Positions 41,413 to 60,995 of a stretch of 64,000 bases of DNA are shown piece after piece. The stretch is from Kordiimonas sp. (GTDB lineage: Bacteria > Pseudomonadota > Alphaproteobacteria > Sphingomonadales > Emcibacteraceae): positions 186,001 to 250,000 of the forward strand of contig PADB01000012.1 of NCBI GenBank assembly GCA_002700365.1. The letters are read 5' to 3'. A program made the position numbers and the translations under genes. The notes under the pieces were generated by a model, which made no database searches, had not been told where the DNA came from, and saw only the letters and a program-made list of their open reading frames with translations. How positions within the stretch are numbered: position 1 is the first letter of the stretch; the number at the start of each line of letters is the position of its first letter.

Positions 41413-42435
41413 GTGTCGTTGCTATTTCCGTCTGCAACCCACTGTGAGATATCAGACAAATATACCGGACCCTATCTTACTGTAGTTATTGATACAGAAG
41501 AAGAATTTCCGTGGCATGAGCGCTTTAATCGTAGCAATAGGTCAGTTGACTGTATTCAACAACAATATCTAGCACAGGATATATTCCGCGAATACGGGAT
41601 TGTACCGACTTATGTCATTGATCATCCCGTGGTCGATGATGACCGTGCCGTTGAAGTTCTTAAGGAGTGGGCAGATAAGGGTGAATGTCTTATTGGGACA
41701 CATTTGCACCCTTGGGTTAACCCGCCATATGATGAAGAGGTTAATGAATATAATTCCTATCCGGGAAATCTCCCCCCTGCGTTGGAGGCGGAAAAGTTAC
41801 GCATTCTTACCGGTTATATAGAAGAGCGATTTGGCCACCGTCCTGTTGTATATAAGGCGGGACGTTATGGGGTCGGGGCGAATACAGAAAAAACACTGCA
41901 GGATCTCGGCTATCAAGTAGATTGTAGTGTTGTTCCATATACCAATCTGTCGCGCGAACAAGGGCCGGATTTCAGGGGATTGGCGGGGGAGCCTTTTTGG
42001 ATCAATAAAGAGCAGGGGTTATTTGAAGTCCCACTGACGCGGGACTTTCCGGGGTTATTATCAGGTGTTTTACCGGACCTTGGCCCACGAATATACGACC
42101 AGATAGCATCTGGCCTCTTTCTGAAATGTAGGGTGCCGGGTATCTTGGCAAGATTGGGATTGATGGAACGTATTCCTTTGACACCAGAAGGGGTAAGCGT
42201 TGAAGAGCATAAGCGGCTGACGGAATACCTTGTGAAACGACATCATCGATTTTTTAGCTATACCTATCACAGTTCAACGTTATTGGTGGGGGGCTCTCCT
42301 TACGCACAAAACGAAGCTGAGCGTAATAGTTTTGTCGAACGGATTGACAGATTTCTAGATTTTTTTGTCAATGTTTGTGGCGGACAATCGGCAACACCAC
42401 TGCAAATACGTGATATGGCATTAGAGAAGTTATAA
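41413..42435 (+). CDS. Polysaccharide deacetylase-like protein (WalW type)
   Basis: A 340-residue protein with a NodB-like TIM-barrel deacetylase fold. The catalytic Asp motif VVIDTEEEF (about residues 24-32), the metal His pair in GTHLHPW (H95, H97) and a late Arg/Gly block YKAGRYGVG are visible. No signal peptide, so it should be cytosolic or membrane-associated. It resembles WalW-like proteins of polysaccharide loci. GTG 41413 directly follows GAGGGAG with very short spacing; TTG 41419 has a better distance and may be the real start. It diverges from wecB and converges with hydrolase 1, 2 bases between stops. Confidence 0.8.
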   Translation: MSLLFPSATHCEISDKYTGPYLTVVIDTEEEFPWHERFNRSNRSVDCIQQQYLAQDIFREYGIVPTYVIDHPVVDDDRAVEVLKEWADKGECLIGTHLHPWVNPPYDEEVNEYNSYPGNLPPALEAEKLRILTGYIEERFGHRPVVYKAGRYGVGANTEKTLQDLGYQVDCSVVPYTNLSREQGPDFRGLAGEPFWINKEQGLFEVPLTRDFPGLLSGVLPDLGPRIYDQIASGLFLKCRVPGILARLGLMERIPLTPEGVSVEEHKRLTEYLVKRHHRFFSYTYHSSTLLVGGSPYAQNEAERNSFVERIDRFLDFFVNVCGGQSATPLQIRDMALEKL

Positions 42436-42437
42436 GT

Positions 42438-43316
42438 TTATTTTTTACTTAACGCAGAGATTTGCAAAAAGTCCAGTGTTGCACTAGCGGCTTCTGTTCG
42501 CCATTGTTCAGACGAGAATGTGTGGTCACTATCATTGATAAAGGCACGTTTTAATTTTGTATGAGAGAGGACGTCCTTCCAGTCAGAATCCGAGGTGATT
42601 AAATCTTCGAATTCACGCGCTGTCAGATCGTTGCCGCTATGTAATAATAAAACATGTCCTTTAAAGTCTTTCAGGCCTTGCAACATTCGTTGCGGAAAGG
42701 GGGAGCCACTATTGTCCGGATTTGGCGATTTAAACATGCCAAGCAAGCTGTTACTCGCACTTGCCAATGCTTTGGGGATGTCAATTTTCAAGGATAGTAA
42801 TTTGCGCCAAAAGGCGGGATCTTTAAATTTGGCAAAATAGTAATGCTTGACCATGGCTTTTGCATGGCTTTCTTCGGTGCGTACCCAGCTATTTGCCAGA
42901 ACAATATGACTTACAGCCGGATGTTCGGCCCCACCAAGAAGTAAGGCGGATGCCCCTTCGCATAGTCCCCACAAGGCAATATTATGCAGGGTGGGAAGCT
43001 GTTGCTGAAATTTGTCTATGGCAGCGTAAATATCAGCAGAGACATGCTCAAAACCCGGGTATTGGCCTTCGCTGTCACCTATCCCCTGATAATCAAAACG
43101 GAATACAGGAATACCATGAGAAGCAAGAAAACGGGCCATATGGACGTACTGACGATGGGCACCGATACGGTATTGCGGTCCTCCGACCACGATAATCACA
43201 CCGATTGTAGCGTTTTCAGGATGTGTAGACGCATCCGGAAAATGCGTAATACCGATGAGCTTTTTACCGCCGCTGGTGAAGCACAAGGCTTCTTCATGTG
43301 GATCGTTATGTGTCAT
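42438..43316 (-). CDS. Hydrolase 1, exosortase A system-associated (Cys-type alpha/beta hydrolase)
   Basis: A 292-residue alpha/beta-hydrolase-fold protein that fits the XrtA-locus hydrolase 1 family: the oxyanion region VVGGPQYRIGAHRQYV and DYQGIGDSEG are recognisable. The nucleophile elbow is GLCEG (C119), so the nucleophile is cysteine, as in dienelactone hydrolase. An Asp (HSGNDLTAREF) and His (NDSDHTFSS) could complete the triad. The start at 43316 lies 11 bases inside the end of hydrolase 2. Function is unknown; acyl transfer or thioester hydrolysis involving the nearby acyl carrier protein is an inference. Confidence 0.87.
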   Translation of the reverse strand: MTHNDPHEEALCFTSGGKKLIGITHFPDASTHPENATIGVIIVVGGPQYRIGAHRQYVHMARFLASHGIPVFRFDYQGIGDSEGQYPGFEHVSADIYAAIDKFQQQLPTLHNIALWGLCEGASALLLGGAEHPAVSHIVLANSWVRTEESHAKAMVKHYYFAKFKDPAFWRKLLSLKIDIPKALASASNSLLGMFKSPNPDNSGSPFPQRMLQGLKDFKGHVLLLHSGNDLTAREFEDLITSDSDWKDVLSHTKLKRAFINDSDHTFSSEQWRTEAASATLDFLQISALSKK

Positions 43317-44154
43317 TGAATACGCTCTTAACGGCCTGGAGTGTCTCATCAATCAGTAGGTTAGACCATTCGGGCTCTTGTAAGGTCCAAAAGGCAGGTC
43401 CTTTAAGTGTTTTTGCCGTGATATTTGCGGACTTTGTTTGCCATGTGGCCAAAAGCTTGTTTGCGGCAGGGGGAATTTGATCACTATCCTCGCTGCCCAT
43501 TTCAAACCAGCGTATGTTAGCTGCGGCAGGAAGGGGAAGATCAGAAAGTTGTATCTGACTGAGTTCGGATGCCATTTGCGGGGTGAGACTGTAGCCACCA
43601 ATTTCAATGGTTTGCCCCTGATCGAGTTGCTCTTGTAGAGCTTTGGTCGTGAGAGCAGTTGTATTTGAGCCCTGCGTTAGTGCCGCGGCTGTTTTAATAC
43701 GCAAGAACTGAACGATAAAGTTTTTTCCTTTTAGGACGGGTGCCCAAAGAACAAGTCGCAATGTGTCAATATGATTGGGCTGTATATTTGGGTGACGAAG
43801 GAGACCGGGCAAGAGTAATGCTCCTGTTCGTAGGCTCCAGAAGCATATTTCCGCATCGCTTTTTTGCTGTAACCAGGAAAGGGCGGATTGTAAATCACCG
43901 TGCCAAATATGGGGGTTGGCTTCGGCATAGGTGCCCTGACTATCTCCGGTGCCATAAAGGTCAGGAACCAGCACAGCATAGCCTTGCTGTGCCAACCATC
44001 GGGCCTGACGGGAAATCATATGACGGGAGCGGTTAAGTTCTTCCGCAAAAGGGGGTATAAATAGAATATTCCCTTGGCATTTTGTATCAGGGGGAGGGGG
44101 ATAATAGATACAGAATATTTTGCCGGCGACTGATGGAAGGAAGAACGGGTGCAA
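43306..44154 (-). CDS. Hydrolase 2, exosortase A system-associated (no nucleophile seen)
   Basis: A 282-residue alpha/beta-hydrolase-fold protein of the XrtA-locus hydrolase 2 family, with PPFAEELNRSRHM and DLYGTGDSQG near the N-terminus. Where the nucleophile elbow G-x-S-x-G should be, the sequence is WSLRTG, so Arg109 occupies the nucleophile position. It is probably not a standard hydrolase; it may be a binding partner of hydrolase 1, with which it overlaps by 11 bases. It ends the order ACP, hydrolase 2, hydrolase 1 on the minus strand, with 18 bases between ACP and this gene. Other family members by memory carry a similar GLR elbow. Confidence 0.83.
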   Translation of the reverse strand: MHPFFLPSVAGKIFCIYYPPPPDTKCQGNILFIPPFAEELNRSRHMISRQARWLAQQGYAVLVPDLYGTGDSQGTYAEANPHIWHGDLQSALSWLQQKSDAEICFWSLRTGALLLPGLLRHPNIQPNHIDTLRLVLWAPVLKGKNFIVQFLRIKTAAALTQGSNTTALTTKALQEQLDQGQTIEIGGYSLTPQMASELSQIQLSDLPLPAAANIRWFEMGSEDSDQIPPAANKLLATWQTKSANITAKTLKGPAFWTLQEPEWSNLLIDETLQAVKSVFNDT

Positions 44155-44172
44155 GACATTCGCCCTTTTGTT

Positions 44173-44424
44173 TTAGGCCACCAGTTTCTCATCAACGAAT
44201 AAACAGAGAGAGCCAAAGGTTTCAAAGGTTTCCGCGCTGATATCATCATCTTCAATAATGATATCAAAATATTCCTCTATTGAGGTAATGAGCATCGCAA
44301 CGGCCATTGAATCCAATTCGGGAATGTTGCCTAACAATGCTGTATCTGTGGCAATATCATTTGCCTTATCACCAATCTGCAATGTATCGCGCAGAATTTT
44401 TCTAACGTCTTCAATAACAGCCAT
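44173..44424 (-). CDS. Acyl carrier protein, exosortase A locus
   Basis: An 83-residue discrete carrier protein. The phosphopantetheine attachment site is Ser39 in PELDSMAV, and the acidic helix following (about 55-67) is typical. It is not AcpP of fatty acid synthesis, which would sit with fab genes. Being in an XrtA locus next to two alpha/beta-hydrolase-fold proteins and divergent from an AMP-forming ligase, it most likely carries a carboxylic acid or amino acid made active by that ligase. It is first in the minus-strand operon with hydrolases 2 and 1. Confidence 0.92.
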   Translation of the reverse strand: MAVIEDVRKILRDTLQIGDKANDIATDTALLGNIPELDSMAVAMLITSIEEYFDIIIEDDDISAETFETFGSLCLFVDEKLVA

Positions 44425-44577
44425 TCGACATAGCCTTTATTCTTTTACTTTTAGTGTTCTAAACTCATATGCTTTTGTACGAGCGCGGCACTTATACTAC
44501 AAGAAATCTTTTTAAGAAAGCATGAAGACGCGCAAATATATGCCGTCTAATGGTTATGCAATGAGTTGAAAATATTC

Positions 44578-44592
44578 CCCCAACTGTTGGGG
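44578..44592. promoter_or_regulatory. 15-bp dyad in the ACP/ligase divergent promoter region
   Basis: CCCCAAC-T-GTTGGGG at 44578-44592 is a perfect palindrome around a central T, midway in the 290-base intergenic gap between the minus-strand ACP unit and the plus-strand ligase unit. It looks like an operator for a regulator of both. The rest of the gap is AT-rich with no other clear feature. Confidence 0.5.
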
Positions 44593-44714
44593 AGATGGTT
44601 TGTTTATTGTTATTTCCAGATGCAAAACGTGTTTCATTCACAATTTTATAACTAATGATTTATATTGTGATGTGAAAACAACAGCATATTCATAGCGGTA
44701 TTGTATAAACGATT

Positions 44715-46301
44715 ATGACCATATTATTACCTGACCTTATAAAACAGCATGCTTTAGGGCGGCCTGATGCCGATGCGTTGTGCTTTAAGACGCAAACATT
44801 AAGCTATGCTGATTTGTGGCAGCAAATTACTGCATTTCAGCAAGGGATGTTGGCCGCAGATTTAAAACGCCACGACCGTGTTGCGATTTATCTGCCTAAA
44901 CAAATTGAAACGGTCACGGCAATGTTCGGTACTTCGGCCGCAGGGGGTGTCTTTGTTCCTGTTAACCCCGGCCTGAAAGCGCGTCAGGTCAGTTATATAA
45001 TGCAAAACTGCAATGTGCGCATATTAATCACAAGTGCGGACCGCTTAAAGGTGATGCAGGAATTTCTACATGAATGTGATGACTTGCGTCGTATTGTTAT
45101 TGTCGGGAAAATGCCAGAGGACATAGACACGCACGGCGTTGATGTCGAAAGCTGGGATGATTTTGTCATTTCTGAGCCCGATCATCAAAGAGCTGCACAT
45201 CCTGTTATTGATGCGGATATGACGGCAATACTCTATACATCGGGTAGTACCGGTATGCCAAAAGGCGTGGTGTTATCACATAGAAACATGGTTGCGGGGG
45301 CGCAAAGCGTTGCGACTTATCTAAATAATTGCCCGGAAGACGTCATTTTAAGCGTGCTGCCGCTGAGTTTTGATGCTGGTCTTAGCCAGCTAACAACCGC
45401 TTTTTACGCTGGGGCGAAAGTGGTTTTGATGAATTATTTACTGCCGCGTGATGTGATCCGTGCCGTGGCGAAAAATAAAGTGACTGGCCTGACTTTAGTG
45501 CCTCCTTTATGGGTGCAATTAGCAGAACTGGAATGGCAGGAGGAGGCTGTTTCATCCCTACGTTACATTGCGACAACAGGAGGACGGATGCCAATACCTG
45601 TGACGGAAAAGCTGTCGTCTGTACTTTCTCATTCGGATATATATTTGATGTATGGACTGACGGAAGCTTTCCGGTCGACATATCTTCCGCCTGAAGAGGT
45701 CAAAAGGCGCCCGGATTCCATAGGGCGGGCCATTCCAAATGCGGAAATTCTTGTTGTGCGTGAAGATGGCACATTATGTGGACCAGGAGAGCCGGGGGAA
45801 CTTGTGCATCGCGGGGCTCTTGTTTCCTTAGGTTATTGGAATGATATGGAACGGACAAAGGAGCGTTTTCGCCCCGCGCCCGGGCAGGTATCAGGCCTGC
45901 CAAACCCAGAGCTTGCGGTTTGGTCCGGTGACACAGTAAAAATGGATGATGAAGGATATCTTTATTTTGTTGGCCGGCGTGATGAGATGATTAAAACATC
46001 CGGCTTTCGTGTCAGCCCAACGGAACTCGAAGAGATTATTTATGCCAGCGGCCTCGTCGGTGAGGTGGCGGCTATTGGCGTAGAGGATATGCAGTTAGGT
46101 CAGGCCATTTATATTGTGGTGACGGCAAAGGACGGACATGATTTTGAGGAAGAGACACTGATCGCATTTTGCCGACAGGAAATGCCTACTTATATGGTGC
46201 CAAAACGTGTCATTTTGTGGGATGCTCTGCCCCGAAATCCAAATGGAAAAGTAGATCGCAAAAAAATAGCCGCCGATATTACGATAACAAATGACGCTTA
46301 G
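44715..46301 (+). CDS. Acyl-CoA ligase (AMP-forming), exosortase A system-associated
   Basis: A 528-residue ANL-superfamily enzyme that activates a carboxylate with ATP to an acyl-adenylate and passes it to a thiol. The P-loop YTSGSTGMPKG is near 174-184, the A5 motif YGLTEAFRST near 315, A7 WSGDTVKMDDEGY near 405, hinge KTSGFRVSPTELE near 435, and the catalytic Lys K512 in NPNGKVDRKK. It belongs to the XrtA-locus ligase family. The likely thiol acceptor is the neighbouring ACP rather than CoA. It starts the plus-strand operon followed by the decarboxylase and the Asn-synthetase-like gene. No good Shine-Dalgarno precedes ATG. Confidence 0.92.
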   Translation: MTILLPDLIKQHALGRPDADALCFKTQTLSYADLWQQITAFQQGMLAADLKRHDRVAIYLPKQIETVTAMFGTSAAGGVFVPVNPGLKARQVSYIMQNCNVRILITSADRLKVMQEFLHECDDLRRIVIVGKMPEDIDTHGVDVESWDDFVISEPDHQRAAHPVIDADMTAILYTSGSTGMPKGVVLSHRNMVAGAQSVATYLNNCPEDVILSVLPLSFDAGLSQLTTAFYAGAKVVLMNYLLPRDVIRAVAKNKVTGLTLVPPLWVQLAELEWQEEAVSSLRYIATTGGRMPIPVTEKLSSVLSHSDIYLMYGLTEAFRSTYLPPEEVKRRPDSIGRAIPNAEILVVREDGTLCGPGEPGELVHRGALVSLGYWNDMERTKERFRPAPGQVSGLPNPELAVWSGDTVKMDDEGYLYFVGRRDEMIKTSGFRVSPTELEEIIYASGLVGEVAAIGVEDMQLGQAIYIVVTAKDGHDFEEETLIAFCRQEMPTYMVPKRVILWDALPRNPNGKVDRKKIAADITITNDA

Positions 46302-46326
46302 CCGCGATGAATAAGGCAATCTCTAC

Positions 46327-47562
46327 ATGACAAAATCAAAACCAGTACATGCACCGATTGAGGGTTTTCCCGTAGAAGAGGGGGAGATAACTGTGGGCGG
46401 TATGCCCGTCAGCCGCTTGGCCCGTCGGGTGGGGTCAACGCCTTTTTTTGCTTATAGTCGTGATTTAATCACGCAACGTATTGCAAAGATGCGACGGGAG
46501 CTGCCGGACGGATTGCATATACATTATGCGATGAAAGCAAATCCGATGCCTGCCGTGGTGCAACACATAGCACCTCAGGTGGATGGATTGGATGTTGCTT
46601 CTGTCGGTGAGATGCAGGTCGCGTTGAATGCCGGTATGGCACCCGAATTAATCAGCTTTGCAGGCCCAGGAAAAACAAATGAGGAATTATCCGCAGCAAT
46701 TGCCGCCGGTGTGGTGATTAATATGGAATCCGCGGGTGAGATGCGGCGTATTGCGGCAGAAGCAAAAGTGCAAGGTTTGTGTCCAAAGGTTGCCGTTCGG
46801 GTCAACCCGGATTTTGAACTGAAGTCATCCGGTATGAAAATGGGGGGTGGCCCCAAACAATTCGGCATAGATGCGGAACAAATGCCTGAAGTACTGGCAG
46901 AATTAGCTAATTTAGAGCTGGATTTCGTAGGCTTTCATATTTTTAGCGGGTCACAAAACCTTAAGATTGAAGCCCTTCGTGAAGCACAGGAAAAAACAAT
47001 TGATCTTGCTTTGCGTCTAAGTGATCTGGCGCCAAAAGAGCCAAAGTTTGTGAATATTGGTGGCGGCTTAGGCATACCGTACTTCCCGGGTGATGTACCA
47101 TTGGACCTTCCTGCTGTGGGGGCGGGACTGGCGGAAATACTTCCTAAAATAAATAAAGAACTTCCCAATACCGATATCGTGATTGAGCTGGGACGGTATT
47201 TTGTTGGTGAAGCCGGAGTGTATGTGGCAAAAGTTGTAGACCGTAAGGTTTCCCGTGGGCAAGTCTTTCTTGTGACCGACGGAGGCTTGCACCATCAATT
47301 GGCGGCTTCGGGGAACTTTGGGCAAATCATTCGTAAAAATTATCCGGTCGCGATCGGTAATAAAATGTCAGCACCTCAAGAGGAGGTAGCAGATATTGTA
47401 GGCTGTCTATGTACACCTCTGGACCGATTGGGGGACAAAATGGAATTACCCAAGGCAGATGTTGGTGATTTGGTAGTTGTTTTTCAATCCGGTGCTTACG
47501 GCTTGTCAGCTAGCCCAACAGCATTTTTGGGACACCCTGTCCCCGCCGAAGTTCTCGTATAG
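46327..47562 (+). CDS. PLP-dependent decarboxylase, exosortase A system-associated
   Basis: A 411-residue alanine-racemase-fold decarboxylase of the DAP/ornithine decarboxylase class. The PLP lysine is K70 in HYAMKANP; other visible sites are HIFSGSQNLK, GGGLGIPYF, ELGRYFVGEAG, DIVGCLCTPLDRLG holding the active-site Cys, and a Tyr in FQSGAYG. It removes a carboxyl group from an amino acid; the substrate is not known for this XrtA-locus family. It starts 25 bases after the ligase stop and ends 18 bases before the Asn-synthetase-like gene, so all three are one operon. Confidence 0.92.
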   Translation: MTKSKPVHAPIEGFPVEEGEITVGGMPVSRLARRVGSTPFFAYSRDLITQRIAKMRRELPDGLHIHYAMKANPMPAVVQHIAPQVDGLDVASVGEMQVALNAGMAPELISFAGPGKTNEELSAAIAAGVVINMESAGEMRRIAAEAKVQGLCPKVAVRVNPDFELKSSGMKMGGGPKQFGIDAEQMPEVLAELANLELDFVGFHIFSGSQNLKIEALREAQEKTIDLALRLSDLAPKEPKFVNIGGGLGIPYFPGDVPLDLPAVGAGLAEILPKINKELPNTDIVIELGRYFVGEAGVYVAKVVDRKVSRGQVFLVTDGGLHHQLAASGNFGQIIRKNYPVAIGNKMSAPQEEVADIVGCLCTPLDRLGDKMELPKADVGDLVVVFQSGAYGLSASPTAFLGHPVPAEVLV

Positions 47563-47580
47563 TAGGGGTGGGAAGAGTAT

Positions 47581-49470
47581 ATGACAGGTATTTGCGGGTG
47601 GTGTGGCCCTTTATCCAGCCAAGAATATAATGCTGAGACGGTGATTGAGGGAATGTCATCACGGCTTATTCGTGGTGAACATGATCGCGAGATGGCCGCG
47701 CATATCAAGAGACATGCAGAAATGTCTTTGGGACTTGCTGTATTGCCTGCAACAACAGAGAATGGCCTGGCAAACAAAGACAGTTATTTCGCGGTATTGC
47801 ACGGGCTATGTCGTTGGGAAGATGATGCACTTTCACAGTTATCGAGACGTGAAAATGATGCTGCAGCCCTGATTGAAGGCTATCGTCGGTATGGCAAAGA
47901 CGTATTAAAGAAAATAAAAGGACCGTTTTCTTTAGCGTTAATTGATGCGCAGGCACAGGAAGCCCTGATTGCTATTGACCGAATGGCTATCCAGACACTT
48001 TCTTACGGTATAGGCAAAGGCGGCCAGTTTGTATTTGGCACAGTGACAGATAGCGTAAAGTCATTTCCCGAAATGACTTCTACCTTATCGGCGCAGGCAA
48101 TTTACAATTATTTATCTAACTACGTTGTGCCCGCCCCGACGGCTATTTTTGATGAGCAACAAAAATTGATGCCGGGGCAATATGTGCATTTTAACCGTGG
48201 TCGCGTGGATCTGGGGTATTACTGGCAGATGCCGTATACGTCGGCCCGTCATGGCGACAGTGATAGTTGGGTCATACGTCTTAAAGAGGTTATGGACGCC
48301 AGCTTTAAAACCAGCATTGACGGCGTACAAGTTGATAATCTCGGGTCGTTTCTAAGTGGTGGCCTAGATAGCAGCACAGTATCCGGTTTGATGAAAAAAC
48401 ATGCTGGTGGGGGGAAGACCTTTACTATTGGTTTTGATGAGCCACGTTATGATGAAAGTGCATATGCGCGCTTAGCCGCAGAGCATTTTGGCACAGAACA
48501 TTATGAATATTTTGTGCAGCCGGAAGATGTGTTGTGGGCGGCGCCTAAAATTGCTGAAGTATATGATGAGCCATACGGCAATACGTCTGCGGTACCGGCG
48601 TTGTTTTGTGCAAAAATGGCAAGAGAGCATGGCGTTGACGTGATGCTAGCCGGTGATGGAGGGGATGAAATCTTCGCCGGGAACGAGCGTTATGTCATGA
48701 TGAAACGGATCGAGCGTTACGGGCTTATCCCCAAGTCAGTCCGTAAATATGCGCTGGAGCCTCTGCTGCATATGCCAGGTGTTAATAAACTTCCCGTTGC
48801 TCATCAGGCTTATAAATTGATGAAGCGTTATCATATTCCGATGCCGGAACGTATTTATTCCTACGAATATACAGCCAATGCGACAGCATATGGAATGTTC
48901 CCGGCCGAAGTGGTGGACAATATAGATGTGACCTTACCGCGTACCTTGTCCCATGAGGTCTATGGGCGGGCAGATGCGCAGAGCATGGTGCAAAAAATGA
49001 TGTTTCTGGATTTGCAGAATGCCTTGGCGGATAATGATCTGCGTAAAGTCAACCGGATGTGCCAAATCGCGGGTGTTGAAGTGCGTTACCCTATGCTGGA
49101 AGAGCAGCTAGTGGACTTTTCTGCGACAGTACCCAGCGAAATTATGCTCCCCGGGTTGAAGCTGCGGCATTTTTTCAAGCAGGCTACGGCTGATTTCTTA
49201 CCTCAAGAAATTATCACAAAGGAAAAGCATGGTTTTGGATTGCCGTTTGCAGAATGGGTCATTCAGGACAAAGCACTTCATGAAATGGTCATGGATCATC
49301 TTAATATGATGCTGCAAAGGAATATTTTGCGCCCTGAATTCATTCAGGCCGTTCAGGAATCATGTCGAGATGATAATGACACGGGATTGCGATCTATGGG
49401 ATGGGACTTGGCCATGTTAGAGATGTGGATGCAGCTTCACTATGATGAAGGGACAGGGGATAAAGCATAA
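47581..49470 (+). CDS. Asparagine-synthetase-like protein with Thr in place of the glutaminase Cys
   Basis: A 629-residue two-domain protein. Residues about 1-210 form the Ntn glutamine amidotransferase fold and about 230-600 the ATP-pyrophosphatase synthetase domain with the P-loop SFLSGGLDSSTVSG and GDGGDEIFAGNERY. In true AsnB, residue 2 is Cys (MCGI); here the protein starts M-T-G-I-C-G, and no upstream start restores it, so glutamine hydrolysis is probably lost. Synthetases of this kind, such as beta-lactam synthetase, make amide bonds from an amine in the substrate. A GGAAGAG ribosome site precedes ATG. It ends the ligase-decarboxylase operon. Compare the intact paralogue at 59073. Confidence 0.88.
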   Translation: MTGICGWCGPLSSQEYNAETVIEGMSSRLIRGEHDREMAAHIKRHAEMSLGLAVLPATTENGLANKDSYFAVLHGLCRWEDDALSQLSRRENDAAALIEGYRRYGKDVLKKIKGPFSLALIDAQAQEALIAIDRMAIQTLSYGIGKGGQFVFGTVTDSVKSFPEMTSTLSAQAIYNYLSNYVVPAPTAIFDEQQKLMPGQYVHFNRGRVDLGYYWQMPYTSARHGDSDSWVIRLKEVMDASFKTSIDGVQVDNLGSFLSGGLDSSTVSGLMKKHAGGGKTFTIGFDEPRYDESAYARLAAEHFGTEHYEYFVQPEDVLWAAPKIAEVYDEPYGNTSAVPALFCAKMAREHGVDVMLAGDGGDEIFAGNERYVMMKRIERYGLIPKSVRKYALEPLLHMPGVNKLPVAHQAYKLMKRYHIPMPERIYSYEYTANATAYGMFPAEVVDNIDVTLPRTLSHEVYGRADAQSMVQKMMFLDLQNALADNDLRKVNRMCQIAGVEVRYPMLEEQLVDFSATVPSEIMLPGLKLRHFFKQATADFLPQEIITKEKHGFGLPFAEWVIQDKALHEMVMDHLNMMLQRNILRPEFIQAVQESCRDDNDTGLRSMGWDLAMLEMWMQLHYDEGTGDKA

Positions 49471-56427: not shown

Positions 56428-57459
56428 GTGCAGGTAGTACAGCTAGATCTTAACGGCGATACGCAGGCATGGGACGATTATGTGCGAAGCCATGGGGATG
56501 GTAGTTTTTGCCATTTATCCGGATGGGGGCGGGTAATCGCAAAGACATTTAATCACAAACATTATTATTTAATGGCTATCGACAAGGGTGATGTTAAAGG
56601 AGTTCTGCCGTTAACATTTATCAAAAGTATGCTGTTTGGCAGATCAATGGTATCGACCGCATTTGCCATGTATGGTGGGCCTTTGGCTGATAATCCTGAT
56701 GTTCTCTCCCTATTGGATCAAAAAGCCTGGGAATTGACGCAGAAATCCGGCGCCAAGGTATTAGAATATCGTACAAAATCCCGACTTCATGAAGATTGGG
56801 CCTGTAAAGATGATGTCTATGTGGACTTTGTCAAAGAGCTGGACGCGGATAATGAAGTCAATATGCAGGCGATACGTCGTAAACAACGGGCGATGATTCG
56901 CAAGGGTATTAAATTCGGTCTGGAGGCGGTCATAGACGATAATGCGGACCGTCTTTACAGCATGTATGCCGAAAGTGTCCGAAACCTGGGCACACCAGTA
57001 TTCAGTAAAAGATTGTTTGTCAATTTGATGGATGAATTTGGCAGAGACTGCGAAGTCCTCACGGTTTTACATGAAGGCCGCCCCATCAGTAGCGTGATGA
57101 GTTTTTATTATAATGATGCAGTTTTGCCTTATTATGGTGGGGGGACTTTTGAAGCACGGCAGTACGCGGCAAATGATTTTATGTATTGGTCGGTAATGGA
57201 ACGGGCCGTTACAGAACGGCAATGTCGAGAATTTGTCTTTGGGCGCAGTAAATTGGGAACAGGGGCCTATAATTTTAAAAAAAATTGGGGCTTTACCGCC
57301 ATTTCTTTGCAATATGAATATAAATTGGCTGATGGTGAAGTAATCCCTGACATCAGCCCGAATAACCCTAAATATCGCATGATGATTAACACGTGGCAGC
57401 GTTTGCCGTTGCAGGTTGCGAATTCTATCGGGCCCATGGTGTCGCGCTATCTGGGATAG
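56428..57459 (+). CDS. FemAB-like protein, XrtA/PEP-CTERM system-associated
   Basis: A 343-residue GNAT/FemAB-type acyltransferase. Recognisable blocks are GDGSFCHLSGWGRVI near the N-terminus, RRKQRAMIRKGIKFGLE in the middle, and FGRSKLGTGAYNFKKNWGF near the C-terminus. FemAB relatives transfer amino acids from aminoacyl-tRNA to cell-surface precursors. In XrtA loci the acceptor is unknown, but the family suggests attachment of an amino acid to the polysaccharide. Start is GTG with AGGG near; 17 bases after the deacetylase. Confidence 0.92.
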   Translation: MQVVQLDLNGDTQAWDDYVRSHGDGSFCHLSGWGRVIAKTFNHKHYYLMAIDKGDVKGVLPLTFIKSMLFGRSMVSTAFAMYGGPLADNPDVLSLLDQKAWELTQKSGAKVLEYRTKSRLHEDWACKDDVYVDFVKELDADNEVNMQAIRRKQRAMIRKGIKFGLEAVIDDNADRLYSMYAESVRNLGTPVFSKRLFVNLMDEFGRDCEVLTVLHEGRPISSVMSFYYNDAVLPYYGGGTFEARQYAANDFMYWSVMERAVTERQCREFVFGRSKLGTGAYNFKKNWGFTAISLQYEYKLADGEVIPDISPNNPKYRMMINTWQRLPLQVANSIGPMVSRYLG

Positions 57460-57497
57460 CCAAAAGAAGACTGTCCCGAGGTAAATCAGGAATAATT

Positions 57498-59054
57498 ATG
57501 GAAATGGCTGCGGAACAATCGCGTTACTTAAAAAACAAGTGGTTCATACCCACCCTTCTCTGGTTGGGGTGTGTGGCCGCTTTGACCGCGATTTTTTATA
57601 GCACAGCTGAAGGCTTAGTGCTGAAATGGTCTAATTCCACGTCCTATAACCACTGCTTTATGATTATTCCCATCAGCCTTTATCTGATATGGGACCAGAA
57701 AAACAAATACCTGCAATTTGTGCCGCAAAAAAATTATTGGTCATTGCTGTATATGTTGGTCGCGGGGTTGATCTGGCTATTAGGTGAGATCGCCGGCATT
57801 GTTTCGGCGCAGCAATTTGCTTTTGTTATGGCTTTGCAAGCTAGCATATTGGCTGTATTCGGCTGGCCTTTCTTTAAGGCGGCTCTTTTTCCCATAATGT
57901 ATTTATTTTTCATGGTGCCGTTCGGTGATTTTCTGATTCCCTACTTACAGGATTGGACCGCATGGTTTCTGGTGAAATGTCTGATATTGCTGAATATTCC
58001 TGTCTATTGGGATGGCGTATTTATTTCTATTCCAACAGGTGATTTCCATGTGGCGGAAGCATGTTCAGGATTGCGTTTTCTGACGGCGACTATCGCTGTT
58101 GGTTTTCTGATGGCCTATATGGGATTCCAGAAAACATGGAAACGCGCCATTGTCGTTTCTTTATCGTTGATTATTCCTATTATTGCGAACGGCTTTAGGG
58201 CAACAGGCATTGTGCTGATTGCATATTACACCAACCATGAATATGCGGTTGGCGTAGATCACCTGATCTATGGGTGGATTTTCTTTGCTTTTATCCTTTT
58301 GGTATTTATCGGCATAGTGATGTGGTTTGCTGATCCAATGGAGGTTACAGCAGCCTCTCTTCCAATTGATAGTGTCGGCAAAGGGCAAAATCCATGGGCT
58401 TTTTTACAGGTAATTTTGCCGTTGGTTATTCTGGCATCAGCACCCCCCTTATATGCGGGACATATTGCTGCACAACAGACCTCTGTTGCCCAGTATACGT
58501 ATAAGGTTACCCCTCCTTCAGGGTGGGGAGCCGCACCGCTAATATCACAAAAGGTTGTCTGGACTCCCCAATATGCAGGGGCGCATATTACACAACAAAC
58601 GCAGTTTATGAACGGGCAGGGGCAGGCTGTAGACTTTTACGCCGCGTATTATGCCTATCAATCCAAAGAGCGTGAGCTTGTACGCTTTGGTAATAGCGTT
58701 ATACAGCCAGCAAAGTTTTGGGATTATTCTTCAAGCAAGGTGATTTCTTTATCGCATGAGAATGTCGAAATACCGACGCGTCAGTATATCCTGAAATCGT
58801 TGACAGGGCAGAGACTGGTTTGGATGTGGTATGTCGTCGATGGCGAGATTGTGACATCAGATTTGTATATCAAGGTGCTGACGGCCAAAAATAAGCTTTT
58901 CGCTGGAACAGGAGAGGCCGGGGTGTTGGCAATATCTGTCCCATATCGTGAATTGGAGTTGGATGACGCAGTGACAACACTGAGCAGCTTTTTTCAGCAA
59001 ATGGGTCCTATAGAGAAAATGTATCGGCCAGAAATAAAATTGAGTGTCGAGTAG
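57498..59054 (+). CDS. xrtA: Exosortase A fused to EpsI domain
   Basis: The inner-membrane transpeptidase that cuts PEP-CTERM sorting signals and joins target proteins to the surface. The 518-residue protein has eight or more membrane helices in its first 300 residues. The catalytic triad is visible: C189 in HVAEACSGLRFL, R234 in NGFRATGIV and H255 in GVDHLIYGW. After about residue 310 a periplasmic EpsI-type domain (PPSGWGAAP, then a YAAYYAYQSKERELVRFGN block) follows, the fused form known as exosortase A. The start is ATG 57498 with AGGA upstream; the frame is open 35 codons earlier inside the FemAB gene. No PEP-CTERM substrate is in the window. Confidence 0.94.
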   Translation: MEMAAEQSRYLKNKWFIPTLLWLGCVAALTAIFYSTAEGLVLKWSNSTSYNHCFMIIPISLYLIWDQKNKYLQFVPQKNYWSLLYMLVAGLIWLLGEIAGIVSAQQFAFVMALQASILAVFGWPFFKAALFPIMYLFFMVPFGDFLIPYLQDWTAWFLVKCLILLNIPVYWDGVFISIPTGDFHVAEACSGLRFLTATIAVGFLMAYMGFQKTWKRAIVVSLSLIIPIIANGFRATGIVLIAYYTNHEYAVGVDHLIYGWIFFAFILLVFIGIVMWFADPMEVTAASLPIDSVGKGQNPWAFLQVILPLVILASAPPLYAGHIAAQQTSVAQYTYKVTPPSGWGAAPLISQKVVWTPQYAGAHITQQTQFMNGQGQAVDFYAAYYAYQSKERELVRFGNSVIQPAKFWDYSSSKVISLSHENVEIPTRQYILKSLTGQRLVWMWYVVDGEIVTSDLYIKVLTAKNKLFAGTGEAGVLAISVPYRELELDDAVTTLSSFFQQMGPIEKMYRPEIKLSVE

Positions 59055-59072: not shown

Positions 59073-60995
59073 ATGTGTGGGATCGTAGGAATTTTTGATA
59101 CGCGTCAGAAGGGCGAGGTAGACATTCGATTATTGCAACGCATGAATGATGTGCAGTCTCATCGTGGACCTGACGAACAGGGAATATTCCAAAATCCAGG
59201 AATTGGCCTGGGACATCGCCGTCTATCCATCATTGATTTGTCAAGCGGACAACAACCACTTTTCAACGAAGATAAATCGGTAGTCGTCGTTTATAATGGT
59301 GAAATTTATAATTTCCCGGAATTGAGACAACAGCTATCGGGGCGCGGTTACCGCTTTTCTACACATTGTGATACTGAGGTCATCGTTAATGCATGGTCTG
59401 AATGGGGGGAAAACTGCGTAGACCATTTCCGTGGAATGTTTGCCTTTGCAATATGGGATCTGAAAAAAGAAGTTCTCTTCCTGGCCCGTGATCGCCTTGG
59501 TATTAAGCCTTTATTTTATACCCTGCAAAATGATGGTAAATTCTATTTTGCCTCTGAGCTTAAATCTATTCAGCAAGTGCAAGGTTTGGAACGTGGTTTG
59601 GACCCCCAGGCAGTGGAAGAATATTTTTCCTATGGGTACGTTCCTGATCCAAAAACAATTTATCGGAATATCTATAAGCTTCCTCCCGGTCATACGTTAA
59701 CGCTACGTCATGGACAAACCAAACTGGTTTCCCGGCAATATTGGGACATTGCCTTCAAAGATATGCCCGTAAACAGTATTGATGAGCTGGGTGAAGAGCT
59801 GATTGAACGTTTTAATGAGGCGGTTAAGATCCGTATGGTTGCAGACGTACCTTTGGGGGCGTTTCTGTCTGGTGGCGTTGATTCCAGCTCTGTCGTGGCT
59901 TTAATGGCACAAAATAATAACGAACCGATAAATACATATTCTATTGGTTTTGACCGGCCTGATTATGATGAAACAGACTTTGCGCAGGAAGTCGCAGAGC
60001 AATACCGGACCAACCATAAAGTCAGAATGGTTGATCCTAATGATTTTGGCCTGATAGATAAATTGGCAGCGATGTATGATGAGCCTTATGCGGATAGTTC
60101 AGCGATGCCGACATACCGGGTGTGCCAGTTAGCCCGTGAAAATGTCACAGTTGCTTTGTCAGGTGATGGTGGTGATGAAATATTTGCAGGATACCGTCGT
60201 CATCGTTGGCATATGAACGAAGAACGTTTGCGCAGCAGAATGCCATATGGCTTACGTAAAGGCGTGTTTGGATTAATGGGGGCGGTCTACCCGAAGATGG
60301 ACTGGGCCCCACGCTATTTGCGGGCGAAAAGCACATTTCAAGCCTTAGCTATGAGCAGTGCTGAGGCATATTTCCATAGCGTAAGCGTTGTGTCACAACG
60401 GCAACGATCCAATATGTTTAGCGCTGGACTAAAACGCGACCTACAGGGGTATAATGCTGTTAGTATATTGCAAAACCTAATAGATAATGCCCCCGTAGAA
60501 GATGATCTGGCGAAAATCCAATATGCGGATATCAAAACATATCTGCCAGGCGATATACTGACAAAAGTGGACCGGGCAAGTATGGCGCATTCTTTAGAGG
60601 TGCGCGTGCCTATTTTAGACCATAAATTTATGGAATGGTCAGCGGGTATTCCTGCTGCGCTGCGATTACAGGGGCGACAGGGCAAGTACATTTTCAAAAA
60701 AGCACTGGAGAAGCACTTGTCAGATAATATTCTCTATCGTGATAAAATGGGATTTGCCGTTCCGTTAGAAAGTTGGTTCCGCCATGAATTGCGGCAACGT
60801 GTTCAAGACACTGTAAAAAGTGAAATTCTGGCGGACACGGGATTCTTTGATATGGATAACTTGCAAAAGATTGCTGATGATCATCAGTCAGGTGCATGGA
60901 ATTATACAACAGCCATTTGGGCGTTGATGATGTTTGAGGCATCTTTGAGAAATGCAGAAGGTTATAGCCATAGCGAATTTAAGCAATCGGCATAG
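59073..60995 (+). CDS. XrtA/PEP-CTERM system amidotransferase (asparagine-synthetase-like)
   Basis: A 640-residue AsnB-like enzyme with intact glutaminase: the nucleophile Cys2 in MCGIVGIFD, the RGPDE and GHRRLSIIDL blocks, YNGEIYN, and the synthetase P-loop SGGVDSSSVV with GDGGDEIFAGYRRH. It transfers amide nitrogen from glutamine to a carboxyl, most likely on a sugar acid or other group of the exopolysaccharide; this family is always in exosortase A loci. AGGAG lies 8 bases upstream. It starts 18 bases after exosortase A. It is paralogous to the Cys-less enzyme at 47581. Confidence 0.93.
   Translation: MCGIVGIFDTRQKGEVDIRLLQRMNDVQSHRGPDEQGIFQNPGIGLGHRRLSIIDLSSGQQPLFNEDKSVVVVYNGEIYNFPELRQQLSGRGYRFSTHCDTEVIVNAWSEWGENCVDHFRGMFAFAIWDLKKEVLFLARDRLGIKPLFYTLQNDGKFYFASELKSIQQVQGLERGLDPQAVEEYFSYGYVPDPKTIYRNIYKLPPGHTLTLRHGQTKLVSRQYWDIAFKDMPVNSIDELGEELIERFNEAVKIRMVADVPLGAFLSGGVDSSSVVALMAQNNNEPINTYSIGFDRPDYDETDFAQEVAEQYRTNHKVRMVDPNDFGLIDKLAAMYDEPYADSSAMPTYRVCQLARENVTVALSGDGGDEIFAGYRRHRWHMNEERLRSRMPYGLRKGVFGLMGAVYPKMDWAPRYLRAKSTFQALAMSSAEAYFHSVSVVSQRQRSNMFSAGLKRDLQGYNAVSILQNLIDNAPVEDDLAKIQYADIKTYLPGDILTKVDRASMAHSLEVRVPILDHKFMEWSAGIPAALRLQGRQGKYIFKKALEKHLSDNILYRDKMGFAVPLESWFRHELRQRVQDTVKSEILADTGFFDMDNLQKIADDHQSGAWNYTTAIWALMMFEASLRNAEGYSHSEFKQSA

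Follow-up and report, generated by a model that had tools for sequence, protein, structure and literature searches.

A candidate on-carrier decarboxylation pathway for polysaccharide decoration in an exosortase A locus of Kordiimonas sp.

Locus organization

The stretch of DNA analysed here (the window) comprises 64,000 nucleotides of Kordiimonas sp. (GenBank assembly GCA_002700365.1, contig PADB01000012.1, positions 186,001 to 250,000), and carries, within an exosortase A locus, a module of six genes. Our analysis suggests that part of this module specifies a pathway in which an acidic amino acid is loaded on a discrete acyl carrier protein (ACP), decarboxylated there and passed to a surface polysaccharide. 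A first-pass annotation, made from the sequence alone, had placed the six genes in two divergent units around a dyad-containing region; all six open reading frames (ORFs) are indeed open at those positions and the dyad is present. The minus-strand unit reads ACP, hydrolase 2, hydrolase 1, and the plus-strand unit ligase, decarboxylase, asparagine synthetase-like protein. The features are:

42438..43316 (longest ORF 42438-43352), minus strand: hydrolase 1, TIGR03100, 311.7 bits against a cut-off of 168.45
43306..44154, minus strand: hydrolase 2, TIGR03101, 265.5 bits against a cut-off of 202.75
44173..44424, minus strand: ACP, a discrete acyl/peptidyl carrier, PF00550, 23.7 bits against a cut-off of 20.8
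44425..44714: intergenic region between the divergent units, with a perfect dyad at 44578-44592
44715..46301, plus strand: ligase, TIGR03098, 768.7 bits against a cut-off of 592.35
46327..47562, plus strand: pyridoxal phosphate (PLP) decarboxylase, TIGR03099, 623.1 bits against a cut-off of 478.45
47581..49470, plus strand: asparagine synthetase-like protein, PF00733, 253.9 bits

The ligase, the decarboxylase and both hydrolases exceed the NCBIfam cut-offs by a wide margin, and all four models (TIGR03098 to TIGR03101) are of the type "hypoth_equivalog" and stand for "exosortase A" families without an assigned function. Hydrolase 1 more likely starts at the ATG at 43316, which overlaps the hydrolase 2 stop codon, than at the end of the ORF at 43352. 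The exact dyad CCCCAACTGTTGGGG (arms CCCCAAC and GTTGGGG about a central T) may be an operator or a terminator; the window holds no second exact copy, and the idea of a shared operator was therefore dropped. A promoter scan of the intergenic region was uninformative (three promoter-like matches against 2.1 expected).

The decarboxylase

The decarboxylase shares with LysA, the diaminopimelate decarboxylase (DAPDC), the Pfam domains PF02784 and PF00278 and the PLP lysine; Lys70, singled out in the first-pass annotation, is invariant in the family alignment. It differs from LysA in lacking the DAPDC substrate motifs EPGR, MNDLxR and CE(T/S)GD, and the host genome carries a separate, normal LysA. 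Among solved structures, two BtrK entries come nearest (E values of 5e-76 and 7e-76), against 1e-48 for the best DAPDC, a lead for BtrK of 27 orders of magnitude over any enzyme of that type. The motif KMGG, a histidine-rich GG(M/L)HH block, LCTPxD and an SPxxFLxHP tail are common to the window decarboxylase, its relatives and BtrK, while seven real DAPDCs, including the genome's own LysA (L129), have TG, MNDLxR and CE(T/S)GD in their place. A maximum-likelihood tree, with support values taken from the version without the wrong-frame outgroups L130 and L134, separates the DAPDCs from BtrK plus all family decarboxylases at 100/100, and TIGR03099 forms a single group at 98/98; BtrK has a long branch, and we claim no sister relations inside the non-DAPDC side. 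Assignment of this protein as BtrK-like is well supported by these comparisons, and on the motifs and the tree a decarboxylase of diaminopimelate, lysine, ornithine or arginine was rejected.

BtrK decarboxylates glutamate while it is bound to the BtrI carrier (PMC7857480), and the substrate of VinO must first be loaded on VinL (PMC11284099). Two other genomes (L023, L025) carry more distant BtrK-like genes with a carrier-like ORF immediately upstream. Given the likeness to BtrK, these two precedents and the carrier-like ORFs beside deeper relatives, decarboxylation in the window system would be expected to take place on the ACP.

This bears on the scheme originally put forward, in which the ligase loads an acid on the ACP, the decarboxylase separately makes a free (di)amine, and the synthetase or the Cys hydrolase joins the two. 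Every enzyme type needed is present, and a synthetase without an ammonia source calls for an amine donor. The substrate motifs of DAPDCs, however, are missing from the decarboxylase, which groups with BtrK, a carrier-dependent enzyme, and ligase and decarboxylase are tightly paired even where synthetase and hydrolases are absent. We consider this scheme very unlikely. Since the decarboxylase is BtrK-like and not of the lysine, ornithine or diaminopimelate type, ligase and decarboxylase would most likely act in series on one ACP-bound aspartate or glutamate, and not on lysine, ornithine or arginine.

Two further sets of BtrK-like genes were observed. In genome G115 (L025:1177-3945) the decarboxylase is fused to an acyl-CoA-dehydrogenase-like C-terminal part and a carrier-like ORF (GLLNSLELVQ) lies directly 5' of it; this is probably another pathway of on-carrier decarboxylation. 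Widespread BtrK-like decarboxylases with an LCTGAD-type motif (L026-L037, families f18 and f21) adjoin a gene of about 400 residues which reads as an aminotransferase, and no carrier protein was seen beside them.

The ligase and the carrier protein

Over residues 200-350, the substrate-binding half of the ligase, the best match of all solved proteins is VinN (3wv4/3wvn), and the alignment is gapless across the loop MYGLTEAFRSTYLPP / MYGQTECKRISIMPP which holds VinN K330/R331. VinN recognizes its substrate through D230, which serves the amine, through K330 and R331 in a loop shortened by one residue, and through the bulkier F231 and S299 (PMC11253843). Among 76 ligases, sampled via the neighbouring decarboxylase so that the counts describe this ligase family only, Asp220 (VinN D230) and Arg320 (VinN R331) are invariant, position 288, near VinN S299, is Ser or Thr, and Lys512 is present in 75, with a gap in the other. 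The window ligase thus combines the amine-binding Asp with the Arg in a loop of VinN length. That it is a standalone amino-acid adenylating enzyme is well supported by this pattern. The plain CoA ligase of the NCBIfam name is disfavoured by the invariant amine-binding Asp (76/76).

The conserved Arg320 appears suited to a second carboxylate on the substrate, and the likeliest substrate would be aspartate, activated via its side chain, with glutamate next. The same on-carrier chemistry with L-glutamate, giving 4-aminobutyryl-ACP as in butirosin synthesis, gains from the fact that BtrK, of all solved structures the closest to the decarboxylase, acts on glutamyl-BtrI; the VinN-like pocket, with its short loop, Arg, and Ser/Thr near S299, nevertheless suits a substrate whose amine is in the beta position relative to the activated carboxyl, and we regard the glutamate variant as rather unlikely.

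The ACP has the phosphopantetheine site noticed at the outset: Ser39 is confirmed, with Ser at the equivalent position in all 41 aligned sequences, and the PELDSMAV motif is kept in relatives. The genome contains one gene of the AcpS/Sfp superfamily (PF01648), whose product could prime the ACP.

The proposed pathway

Drawing on gene content, family-wide active-site patterns, phylogeny and co-occurrence, we infer a substrate, an on-carrier order, a transferase and an acceptor as follows. The ligase would activate an acidic amino acid at its side-chain carboxyl and attach it to the phosphopantetheine arm of the ACP; this amino acid would most likely be L-aspartate or an aspartate substituted at position 3, with glutamate as the alternative. 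The free alpha-carboxyl of the bound amino acid would next be removed by the BtrK-like decarboxylase to leave an omega-aminoacyl thioester, beta-alanyl-ACP from aspartate or 4-aminobutyryl-ACP from glutamate. A transferase would pass this group to a surface polysaccharide or a sugar precursor; in genomes with exosortase A this could be the Cys hydrolase 1 with the non-catalytic hydrolase 2 and/or a GNAT, and elsewhere a GNAT alone. Finally the asparagine synthetase relative, with its dead glutaminase, might add an ATP-driven amide, plausibly between the new amine and a carboxyl such as that of a uronic acid. We give the whole scheme a probability of about 0.6. Of the original idea, loading of the ACP by the ligase is retained, with an amino acid as the acid in keeping with the VinN-like pocket, and the separately made amine partner is not; the broader suggestion of a small carrier-protein pathway tied to a surface polysaccharide gains support.

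Ligase, ACP and decarboxylase resemble VinN/VinL/VinO or BtrI/BtrK, with conversion of aspartate to beta-alanyl-ACP the most likely analogy. In the pathway for the vicenistatin starter unit (VinN/VinL/VinO), as here, there are a standalone ANL adenylation enzyme, a discrete ACP and a PLP decarboxylase which acts after loading, and the pocket half of our ligase is closest to VinN; in the window, by contrast, there is no polyketide synthase and no VinM or VinK, and the setting is that of a polysaccharide. The butirosin side-chain system (BtrI/BtrJ/BtrK) likewise has a discrete carrier and a decarboxylase with the same motifs, and counterparts of its later enzymes were not identified here. Its side-chain product is placed on a sugar-type acceptor (PMC11405602).

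Several observations count against the proposed pathway. The position of VinN K330 is Phe (Phe319) in all 76 ligases, and that of F231 is Ala221 in the window (Ala in 33 of the 76, Tyr in 43), so that the window enzyme has neither K330 nor a bulky residue at F231; for this reason VinN-type side-chain loading is considered probable, not proved. The closest full precedent is VinN/VinL/VinO, because BtrJ, which loads BtrI, is a ligase of a type other than ANL, and VinO is likened to our decarboxylase by description, not by sequence. Of 47 full-length loci, 16 showed no ACP within 10 kb. Lastly, GNAT genes are common, and the homologue of GNAT362 in the window genome is unlinked to the locus.

Hydrolases, acyltransferases and the synthetase

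Hydrolase 1 has an alpha/beta-hydrolase fold with candidates for a Cys-Asp-His triad. Its Cys nucleophile, already remarked upon, is present in 29/29 sequences, and Asp230 and His265 are at least 90% conserved. At the nucleophile elbow of hydrolase 2, 30/30 sequences carry Arg in place of Ser, Cys or Asp. The AlphaFold2 models, both confident (pLDDT 87.9 for hydrolase 1 and 92.1 for hydrolase 2), match lipase TTL (Z 24.0 and 24.3, respectively) and, for hydrolase 1, the thioesterase DcsB (Z 23.1); these esterase/thioesterase matches (Z about 24) show fold only. Polyhydroxyalkanoate synthases, which are Cys hydrolases, are not among the structure matches listed for hydrolase 1, which excludes nothing. 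With no nucleophile at the elbow hydrolase 2 was rejected as an enzyme, and it is probably a pseudo-hydrolase partner of hydrolase 1. In genome G126 (L120:7905-9743) the two are fused in a single protein of 613 residues, Arg-type then Cys-type, and this natural fusion suggests that they work together.

We propose that hydrolase 1 acts on the loaded ACP, either as an acyltransferase or as an editing thioesterase. On the second view the hydrolases are housekeeping proteins, a Cys type II thioesterase and its pseudoenzyme partner clearing misloaded ACP, and the transferase is always a GNAT or FemAB protein. The esterase/thioesterase fold agrees with this, as does the recurrence of three GNAT groups at the locus, also where hydrolase 1 is absent. 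An editing enzyme should, however, follow the ACP, and hydrolase 1 is seen only where an exosortase is present: among genomes with the decarboxylase it occurs in 33/39 with an exosortase and 0/8 without (Fisher p 1e-5; some of these genomes are incomplete metagenome-assembled genomes). A housekeeping role is thus possible, although somewhat doubtful. The same counts tie the hydrolases, but not the ligase-ACP-decarboxylase core, to the exosortase-linked version of the system.

The three GNAT groups are PF13480, PF13444/autoinducer-synthase-like TIGR03694, and a group of 295 residues with no Pfam match, called GNAT by reading and motif likeness only. Of 66 long loci, 35 contain a GNAT, and in 14 loci the GNAT gene is at most 50 bp away from that for the ACP, ligase or hydrolase 1. 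Unlinked homologues of the PF13480 and PF13444/TIGR03694 groups are found in the host genome; a LuxI/FeeM-like acyltransferase of the latter family (G000:C1:620455-621150; L139:9405-10256) is encoded far outside the window, close to an apparent ThiF/E1-type gene. Candidates for the enzyme that joins the group to its acceptor are the Cys hydrolase 1, a GNAT and the synthetase.

The asparagine synthetase-like protein had been described as lacking the glutaminase Cys, and this extends to the family: in the window protein Thr replaces Cys2, and no relative has Cys there. All aligned relatives have also lost the glutaminase Asn position, and all but one the Arg position. Aligned with the third glutamine-binding residue, the window protein and those closest to it keep an Asp which most of the others lack. 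The synthetase motifs SGGxDSS, GDGGDE and the lysine motif KHGFGLPF are retained, as in the asparagine synthetase B family and WbpS-type uronamide synthases; in contrast to these, with the glutaminase site lost throughout the family, ammonia from glutamine is very unlikely. The loss of the glutaminase function is well supported by these residues, and the protein should be an ATP-dependent amide synthetase which uses an amine other than glutamine-derived ammonia. Assignment as TIGR03108 or as a glutamine-dependent asparagine synthetase fails on the score (275.1 bits against a cut-off of 816.9) and on the lost residues. Genomes were scanned with the decarboxylase alignment, which gave 80 loci; the synthetase gene lies directly 3' of the decarboxylase in 13 of them and anywhere in the locus in 26, which makes it accessory, not core.

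Distribution and the link to exosortase

In 71 of the same 80 loci the ligase is immediately upstream of the decarboxylase, some of the remainder being short contigs, and an ACP is near the pair in many. In four actinobacteria and the alphaproteobacterial genome G107 the order is ligase, decarboxylase, ACP, with a GNAT ahead of them, and no exosortase was found in these five genomes. A polysaccharide-deacetylase-family gene is near the core at L107, L108, L116 and L119, and L119 is surrounded by glycosyltransferase genes or genes likened to Wzy, the Wzy matches falling short of the Pfam cut-off. The actinobacterial and G107 decarboxylases nest within the proteobacterial family (100/99 in the maximum-likelihood tree), which points to spread of the cassette by horizontal transfer.

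An even sample of 150 genomes contained the decarboxylase in nine, XrtA in ten and both in eight (Fisher p 8e-11, a value which ignores kinship, although five families are involved); the ligase exceeded its cut-off in eight, all decarboxylase-positive. The first-pass annotation had asked for such a comparison and had described each family as recurring in exosortase A loci. Four of the families do fall in TIGR03098-03101, decarboxylase and XrtA largely coincide and hydrolase 1 tracks the exosortase, but ligase, decarboxylase and ACP also occur in genomes without one: eight carry the core with no exosortase detected. That the core does not depend on exosortase is well supported.

The group could instead be placed on PEP-CTERM proteins or their anchor, as the presence of XrtA in 8/9 decarboxylase-positive genomes of the 150 might suggest. 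Against this, the core persists in the eight exosortase-negative genomes, and the actinobacterial and G107 copies sit among polysaccharide genes; we judge a PEP-CTERM target improbable. Because the core occurs without exosortase and near polysaccharide genes, the target is probably a sugar. More tentatively, a mobile ligase-carrier-decarboxylase cassette may put beta-alanine-type groups on surface polysaccharides and, together with the glutaminase-free synthetase and the Cys-transferase/pseudo-hydrolase pair, give exosortase A polysaccharides cationic substituents, linked through amides, of a class not recognised so far.

Within the library searched there was no paper assigning a function to TIGR03098-03101, none combining exosortase A, decarboxylase, ACP, ligase and PEP-CTERM, and nothing relevant on beta-alanine in exopolysaccharide structures. 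The TIGR numbers were met only in a paper on Burkholderia cenocepacia exopolysaccharide, in which the TIGR03100 gene is Bcam1334, with no tested role. Four of the six window genes are members of these families above the curated cut-offs. The models, annotated only as "exosortase A-associated", carry no mechanism; our analysis adds the proposal of a common pathway, the ACP and the exosortase-independent core. Many floc- and biofilm-formers (Zoogloea, Thauera, Nitrosomonas, Massilia, Accumulibacter) have genes of these families. If the proposed pathway is correct, the polymers of such organisms would bear omega-aminoacyl (cationic) groups, a matter of relevance to how flocs and biofilms hold together, and carrier pathways of the VinN/BtrK type would be seen to operate outside antibiotic synthesis. 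The proposal gives a cluster of unknown function a definite, testable role with a named pair of substrates, aspartate versus glutamate.

Neighbouring genes

Placement of the module in an exosortase A locus was borne out by the export, kinase, deacetylase, FemAB and exosortase A genes downstream, including:

56428..57459, plus strand: FemAB-like GNAT, possible transferase (matches to TIGR03019 and PF13480)
57393..59054, plus strand: exosortase A of the same locus (TIGR03109 match at G000:C1:243558-244331; PF09721, E value 1.5e-70)
59073-60995: true exosortase A amidotransferase, TIGR03108, 1032.8 bits against a cut-off of 816.9

The FemAB-like protein belongs to the same Pfam family, PF13480, as GNATs which adjoin the ACP in relatives. 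On the other side, adjoining the module, positions 41413-42435 encode a protein of 340 amino acids with no Pfam or NCBIfam match, which reads like a polysaccharide deacetylase (it starts VVIDTEEEFPW) and has a homologue in Massilia (L102).

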